Source of the DNA: Candidatus Saccharimonadota bacterium
GTDB taxonomy: Bacteria; Patescibacteriota; Saccharimonadia; Saccharimonadales; Saccharimonadaceae
DNA: 33,027 bases
Reading direction: 5' to 3'
Assembly (NCBI GenBank): GCA_017536895.1
Contig: JAFWCN010000013.1
Location: 1-33,027 of the forward strand
This document shows, piece by piece, positions 32,135 through 33,027 of the stretch. The position numbers and the translations under genes are program-made. Each line of letters starts with the position of its first letter. Position 1 is the stretch's first letter. Below the pieces are notes generated by a model that worked only from the letters and a program-made list of their open reading frames with translations, searched no databases and was not told where the DNA came from.

Positions 32135-32869
32135 ATGGAAAACAAAAACACGGATTTAGTTGTCAAGAATCTGAAGAAACATTACGGCAAGAACAAAGTC
32201 TTAAATGGTATCAATTTCGAACTAAAAGAAGGTGAACGCGTAGTAGTGCTTGGTCCATCCGGCTCAGGCAAATCAACCTTTCTCCGTTGTATCAATCGTC
32301 TTGAGGATCCCTCAAGCGGCCAAATTATCCTCGATGGCGTCGAAGTCACCGACAAAAACATCCGCAAAATTCGTCGCAATATCGGTATGGTTTTCCAGCA
32401 TTTTAATCTCATTAATAACCTTACTGTTATGGAAAACCTCACCTTAGCTCCCGTCAGGCTCAAGGTCATGAACAAATCCGATGCTGAGAAACGTGCTCAC
32501 GAACTTTTGAAACATATTGGTTTACCAAATAAAGCCAACTCCTATCCCGCCTCCCTCTCCGGCGGTCAAAAACAGCGTATCGCCATCATTCGCGCTATGA
32601 TGTTATCACCTGAAGTATTGTTATTTGACGAACCAACTTCCGCTCTTGACCCTGAATCCATCGGCGACGTGCTCTCACTCATTCGCGAGCTCGCCGATCG
32701 TGGCATGACCATCATGATTGTCACCCACGAAATGAGCTTCGCCCGTGAAATCGCCACCCGCATCGTATTCGTAGACAAAGGCAAAATCATCGAAGAGGGA
32801 ACACCAACCGAATTTTTCAACCGCCCGAAGACTCCCCGCGTCCAAGAATTCCTCCAAAAAGTTCTCTAA
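32135..32869 (+). CDS. Amino-acid ABC transporter, ATP-binding protein
   Basis: 244 residues, GlnQ-like. Walker A GPSGSGKST, Q-loop NIGMVFQHFNLI, signature SLSGGQKQRIAI, Walker B EVLLFDEPTSALD, and H-loop IVTHEMSFAREIA are all present. It energises the adjacent permease. The ATG directly follows the permease stop, with GGAGG upstream inside that gene. Confidence 0.95.
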   Translation: MENKNTDLVVKNLKKHYGKNKVLNGINFELKEGERVVVLGPSGSGKSTFLRCINRLEDPSSGQIILDGVEVTDKNIRKIRRNIGMVFQHFNLINNLTVMENLTLAPVRLKVMNKSDAEKRAHELLKHIGLPNKANSYPASLSGGQKQRIAIIRAMMLSPEVLLFDEPTSALDPESIGDVLSLIRELADRGMTIMIVTHEMSFAREIATRIVFVDKGKIIEEGTPTEFFNRPKTPRVQEFLQKVL

Positions 32870-32873
32870 AACC

Positions 32874-32902
32874 TTGTATTATAATGGGGGGGGTGATATA
32901 AT
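32874..32902 (+). promoter_or_regulatory. Promoter with G8 tract in the spacer
   Basis: -35 TTGTAT at 32874-32879, a 17-bp spacer containing eight consecutive G (32886-32893) and ending TGa, and -10 TATAAT at 32897-32902. A second TATAAT lies at 32880-32885. Length changes in the G tract would alter promoter spacing. Confidence 0.6.
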
Positions 32903-32911
32903 AAAACATAT

Positions 32912-33027
32912 ATGCATAAGCGAATAGGAGGTATAGTCTCATTTCTCGCATTAGCTTTACTATGTGGAGTTATCAGTCTTTTTAATGTTAACAGTACCTA
33001 TGCCACCGATTCAATCACTCTAAATAT
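32912..33027 (+). CDS. Exported protein, N-terminal part only
   Basis: The frame runs off the right edge; 38 residues are visible. MHKRIGGIVSFLALALLCGVISLFNVNSTYATDSITLN is a clear signal peptide with cleavage probably after TYA. It begins ATGCATAAG like three other exported proteins here. What follows is unknown; a surface protein like the one at the left edge is possible. Gap to the -10 box is 9 nt, with no Shine-Dalgarno. Confidence 0.7.
   Translation, partial: MHKRIGGIVSFLALALLCGVISLFNVNSTYATDSITLN

Follow-up and report, generated by a model that had tools for sequence, protein, structure and literature searches.

A poly-G tract in the promoter spacer of an exported-protein gene of a Saccharibacterium: a probable phase-variable promoter of the porA type

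The promoter that precedes an exported-protein gene at the end of the DNA analysed here is, in our view, a phase-variable promoter of the porA type and belongs to a set of poly-G contingency loci that spans the genus, a reading to which we give a probability of about 0.75. A run of eight G residues separates its predicted -35 and -10 elements, and this arrangement is probably a slippage-driven on/off switch, since many relatives share it with differing numbers of G residues and with surface-protein genes downstream. According to the proposed mechanism, slipped-strand mispairing during replication would add or remove one or more bases of the tract, the distance between the -35 and -10 elements would depart from or approach the 17-bp optimum, and transcription of the exported-protein gene would go up or down. 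The tract would be one of a number of poly-G contingency loci, some in promoters and some in coding sequences, of Saccharibacteria devoid of MutS-dependent mismatch repair. We infer that the tract would slip in living populations, that transcription would track its length and that the protein would act at the cell surface, perhaps in contact with the host cell.

Promoter and gene at the end of the window

The window, that is, the whole stretch of DNA analysed, is the entire contig C10 of the source genome (33,027 bases), and the promoter and the gene start occupy its last 155 bases (Table 1). The coordinates given in the earlier note, which had placed G8 inside a 17-bp spacer between TTGTAT and a TATAAT with an extended -10, were confirmed by direct reading, and G8 indeed gives the spacing of 17 bp that had been called optimal. 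The -35 begins 4 nt past the stop codon of the ABC transporter ATPase gene, and no terminator-like hairpin is evident between the two. The TATAAT of the predicted -10 is at 32897-32902, with TGA directly before it, and ends 9 nt from the ATG; the tract ends 18 nt from the ATG, which corrects the 19 nt previously reported. Because the -10 stands so near the ATG, the mRNA would have almost no leader, or none. The downstream frame encodes a typical signal peptide, MHKRIGGIVSFLALALLCGVISLFNVNSTYATDSITLN, in agreement with the earlier description of the product as a signal-peptide protein. It had also been said that the window holds no other G tract of such size, and G8 is in fact its only run of seven or more G residues, sharing with one A8 the rank of longest homopolymer. 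Two features had escaped the earlier note, namely the second TATAAT on the 5' side of the tract and the weakness of the -35, which matches TTGACA at three of six positions.

Table 1. Coordinates of the features at the 3' end of the window
Feature	Positions	Strand	Basis
Upstream gene, ATP-binding subunit of an amino-acid-type ABC transporter	32135..32869	+	ORF
Putative -35 element TTGTAT, 3/6 to TTGACA	32874..32879	+	read directly
Spacer TATAATGGGGGGGGTGA, 17 bp	32880..32896	+	read directly
Second TATAAT, immediately 5' to the tract; alternative -10, probably inactive	32880..32885	+	read directly
G8 tract, proposed slippage element	32886..32893	+	read directly; G7 in paralogue
Predicted extended -10, TGA-TATAAT	32894..32902	+	sequence; tract on its 5' side in relatives too
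5' end of exported-protein gene, signal peptide, ATG at 32912, cut by the contig end	32912..33027	+	identical in the C14 copy

Since the DNA homology of relatives ends at or before the ATPase stop codon, and a different sequence follows the ATPase gene in the three relatives with downstream DNA in view, the promoter and the exported-protein gene look like a local addition to the source genome. A similarity search of plasmid records with the locus gave no match. A Pfam search with the 38-aa stub of the window gene, and with the gene fragment found at the second tract on contig C9 (see below), gave no match either. Compared with the genus, the stub showed weak matches to signal peptides of exported proteins (best E value 0.005 per genome) and, as these homologues are weak, the assignment of the window gene to a family is indirect.

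Poly-G tracts in the source genome and in the genus

The source genome (Saccharibacteria, 836 kb, 99% complete) has only two tracts of at least eight G residues on both strands, the G8 at C10:32886 and a G10 at C9:30671. Each occupies a -35/-10 spacer ahead of an exported-protein gene, and the distance from the tract to TATAAT is 3 nt in C10 and 11 nt in C9. The probability of a TATAAT within 20 nt downstream of a random site of the window is 0.011, yet both tracts have it there, so that their position does not look like the work of chance. The C9 promoter reads CTTGC-G10-TATTTATGAGT-TATAAT, and the gene behind it is a member of a large surface-type family with nine matches in the source genome and up to 44 in relatives. 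A run of seven G residues is in itself unremarkable, with 1.7 matches expected per shuffled window. One G7 belongs to a second copy of the window promoter, on contig C14, and the seven remaining G7 tracts of the genome are coding or intergenic, none of them in a -35/-10 spacer. The start of a mature surface protein is encoded twice in this genome, at C9:30820-31170 and C15:23543-23839; the C9 copy stands behind the promoter with the G10 tract, and the C15 copy has another signal peptide and a promoter free of poly-G. Contig C1 carries a continuing gene body at both of its ends.

The arrangement recurs in the genus. In 174 species genomes, the pattern G8-N0-20-TATAAT, for which the -35 was ignored in selection, was found at 55 distinct tracts in 31 genomes, as against 7 matches in all for the reversed pattern in the same genomes. 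TTGAC was present within 16 nt upstream at 26 of 49 fetched sites versus 7 of 379 windows taken further upstream, and the complete TTGACA at 16 of 49 versus 0 of 379. When these sites were joined by some chosen from the list of tracts of at least nine G residues, giving a set of 61 tracts, a -35 with four or more of six positions matching accompanied 49 of them. Spacers in this set measured 12-23 nt, mostly 15-19, the tracts ran from G7 to G16 and little else was conserved in the spacer. Such a spread of spacers and lengths would be the expected trace of slippage, unlike a fixed promoter. A homopolymer between the -35 and the -10 is found both in the window and in the genus. In the wider order, a slightly narrower pattern occurred in 13 of 294 sampled genomes, seven of which are from the genus of the window, besides the source genome. 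A variant architecture was observed at four loci, the C9 promoter among them, in which CTTGC or GTTGC abuts the poly-G and 5-11 nt separate the tract from TATAAT.

Tract length also differs between copies of one promoter, in comparisons made between paralogues and not between cells. Genome G028 has two such promoters, with G15 and G10 in spacers of 20 and 15 nt, that are identical at 57 of 60 positions upstream and 29 of 30 downstream. In genome G096, two promoters with G10 and G14 (spacers of 12 and 16 nt) share 57 of 60 positions upstream and 131 of 140 downstream. Judging from these pairs, the length of the tract is the most variable feature of sister promoters. Since the sisters are paralogues, they would show tract instability on an evolutionary time scale and not switching in culture. 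The porA-type interpretation put forward in the earlier note thus gains support from the genus-wide recurrence, from TTGAC at the expected place and from lengths that differ between nearly identical promoters.

Coding sequences of the genus carry poly-G tracts as well. Tracts of at least nine G residues are present in 85 of the 174 genomes, many of them a few codons past an ATG, and surface-protein genes are among the carriers. Five paralogues of genome G095 start with ATGCTAAATATCCACAT-Gn; in the two G9 copies the frame is open (491 and 669 codons), and in the three G10 copies a stop follows after four further codons. Comparable differences were seen in G105 (G10 open, G12 shifted), G064 (G10 open, G11 shifted twice) and G108 (G10 open, G9 shifted). 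Readable and unreadable genes side by side would be the signature expected of translational phase variation; with coding tracts in and out of frame in the genus, a switch at the promoter tracts becomes more likely a priori.

The genes downstream of the tracts of relatives encode surface proteins in many cases, not in all. Pfam domains found there include InlB-type repeats (PF09479), leucine-rich repeats (LRR), SpaA, a pectate-lyase-like adhesin domain, Fib_succ_major domains and a papain-like protease; other downstream genes are of a seemingly cytoplasmic type, encoding a GNAT acetyltransferase and HNH-repeat proteins. By a crude measure, N-terminal hydrophobic segments showed no excess downstream of the tracts (29 of 55) relative to the membrane-rich window (15 of 28). 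At three loci, poly-G promoters precede homing-endonuclease-associated HNH repeats (PF18780), which are not obviously exported.

Mismatch repair and alternative readings

Loss of mismatch repair generally increases slippage in homopolymers. MutS (PF00488) was found in none of 20 genomes tested and is missing from the source genome too, with 11 of 14 controls positive, and in a published survey Saccharibacteria lacked both MutS and MutL (PMC8406219). The absence of MutS should favour slippage, and because of it even a tract of eight G residues may be slippage-active here.

The second copy of the window promoter and gene, with G7 at C14:87129, reads TTGCAATAAAAT-G7-TGATATAAT and is identical to the C10 copy at 134 of 134 bases downstream, up to both contig ends. 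The spacer is 17 bp with G8 in C10 and 16 bp with G7 in C14. The C14 copy has TTGCAA as its -35 (four of six positions of TTGACA) and TAAAAT at the site of the alternative -10, and upstream of the tract the copies are separated by substitutions, being identical at 12 of 16 positions. Both these substitutions and the shortness of G7 and G8 would suit the view that the spacer is G-rich by chance, that the tract is not long enough, or not unstable enough, to switch here and that the differences in length between copies are old. We regard this as unlikely, though worth weighing, because the identity of the copies over 134 bases indicates that the length change is recent relative to the divergence of the downstream part; the genus-wide series of tracts and the absence of MutS also speak against it.

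It seems quite improbable that the active -10 is instead the TATAAT at 32880-32885, so that the tract would coincide with the transcription start or belong to the 5' leader and act through transcript slippage or an effect on translation initiation. That hexamer is perfect and adjoins the tract, and it would leave a leader of about 20 nt, compared with almost none from the downstream -10. However, no -35 stands at the proper distance from it (AAAAGT occupies 32857-32862), the C14 copy has TAAAAT at this site and keeps TGATATAAT downstream, and in relatives the tract is 5' of the -10, within the spacer.

A sequencing or assembly artefact, by short-read homopolymer miscalls or two-colour poly-G noise, with the tract marking a contig end, is very improbable. 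The window, C9 and C14 each end within repeated exported-protein genes close to the tracts, some tracts of relatives are also at contig ends and a one-base error could be behind the difference between G7 and G8. However, an artefactual poly-G would not fall between TTGAC and TATAAT, many tracts lie deep within contigs of at least 100 kb, and the contig breaks are accounted for by the identical repeats downstream. Finally, we give hardly any credence to the tract working independently of spacing, as a regulator binding site or a G-quadruplex: poly-C or poly-G length in the opc and tpr promoters is thought to act partly in other ways (PMC7864442), but the range from G7 to G16 with so little else conserved, and length as the chief change between sister promoters, argue against it.

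As to the porA-type reading itself, some observations must be counted against it. The -35 of the window locus, TTGTAT, is weak, G8 is rather short for a tract expected to slip frequently, and the variation of the window tract is known from its paralogue only. The lack of an excess of hydrophobic segments, the cytoplasmic look of several downstream genes and the nearly leaderless mRNA also weigh against it.

Significance and relation to known systems

For the genus as a whole, we lean towards the view that these Saccharibacteria, reduced episymbionts without MutS and MutL, randomly switch surface adhesins by means of transcriptional (promoter spacer) and translational (early in the reading frame) poly-G loci spread over the genome. 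If so, these loci would form the first phase-variable system to be described from the Candidate Phyla Radiation (CPR) and a candidate means of altering host-cell recognition; they would bear on how Saccharibacteria and other CPR episymbionts recognize and change their bacterial hosts. Should slippage in poly-G tracts switch the surface proteins, a clonal population would comprise cells of several surface types, with consequences for host range and persistence. Genetic work is possible in one member of the phylum, N. lyticus TM7x (PMC12206443). In the open-access literature, no report of phase variation was found for Saccharibacteria or other CPR, incidental mentions aside; the porA-type mechanism is thus already known, and its occurrence in this group is without an earlier report in that literature.

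Judged by its anatomy, the predicted promoter is of the porA kind. In Neisseria meningitidis, the poly-G of porA, a surface-protein gene, lies between the -10 and the -35, and expression drops on departure from the 17-nt spacing (PMC7864442); the window promoter likewise has a poly-G in the -35/-10 spacer and the same optimum, and the gene that follows it, which encodes a signal peptide, is predicted to yield an exported protein. Unlike porA, which encodes the porin of a Gram-negative pathogen, the present system belongs to a MutS-less Saccharibacterium, involves many unrelated surface proteins and is predicted from sequence. In Treponema pallidum, poly-G tracts also lie by the promoter elements of surface antigens, the tpr genes (tprL, tprE, tprJ and others), and their length is variable within isolates (PMC7864442). 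The tprL tract leaves the spacing unaltered because it overlaps the -10 region, whereas here the spacing would be altered. A further parallel is the sortase-dependent pilus switch of Bifidobacterium breve, in which replication slippage reportedly controls surface structures of a gut commensal of a different lineage (PMC9187656).

A wider scan for TTGAC-N2-9-G9-N0-2-TATAAT, with one genome per species, yielded matches whose list is a lower bound. Among the matches listed are many uncultured gut Clostridia, Bacilli and Acholeplasmatales, and some streptococci. The promoters of the Clostridia, Bacilli and streptococci listed resemble those described here in having TTGAC, N2-9, G9-14 and TATAAT before lipoproteins or other exported proteins, with spacers mostly of 14-19 nt; they differ in phylum and in gene repertoire. 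Since so many of the matches listed come from these groups, poly-G spacer promoters appear to be widespread in gut bacteria.
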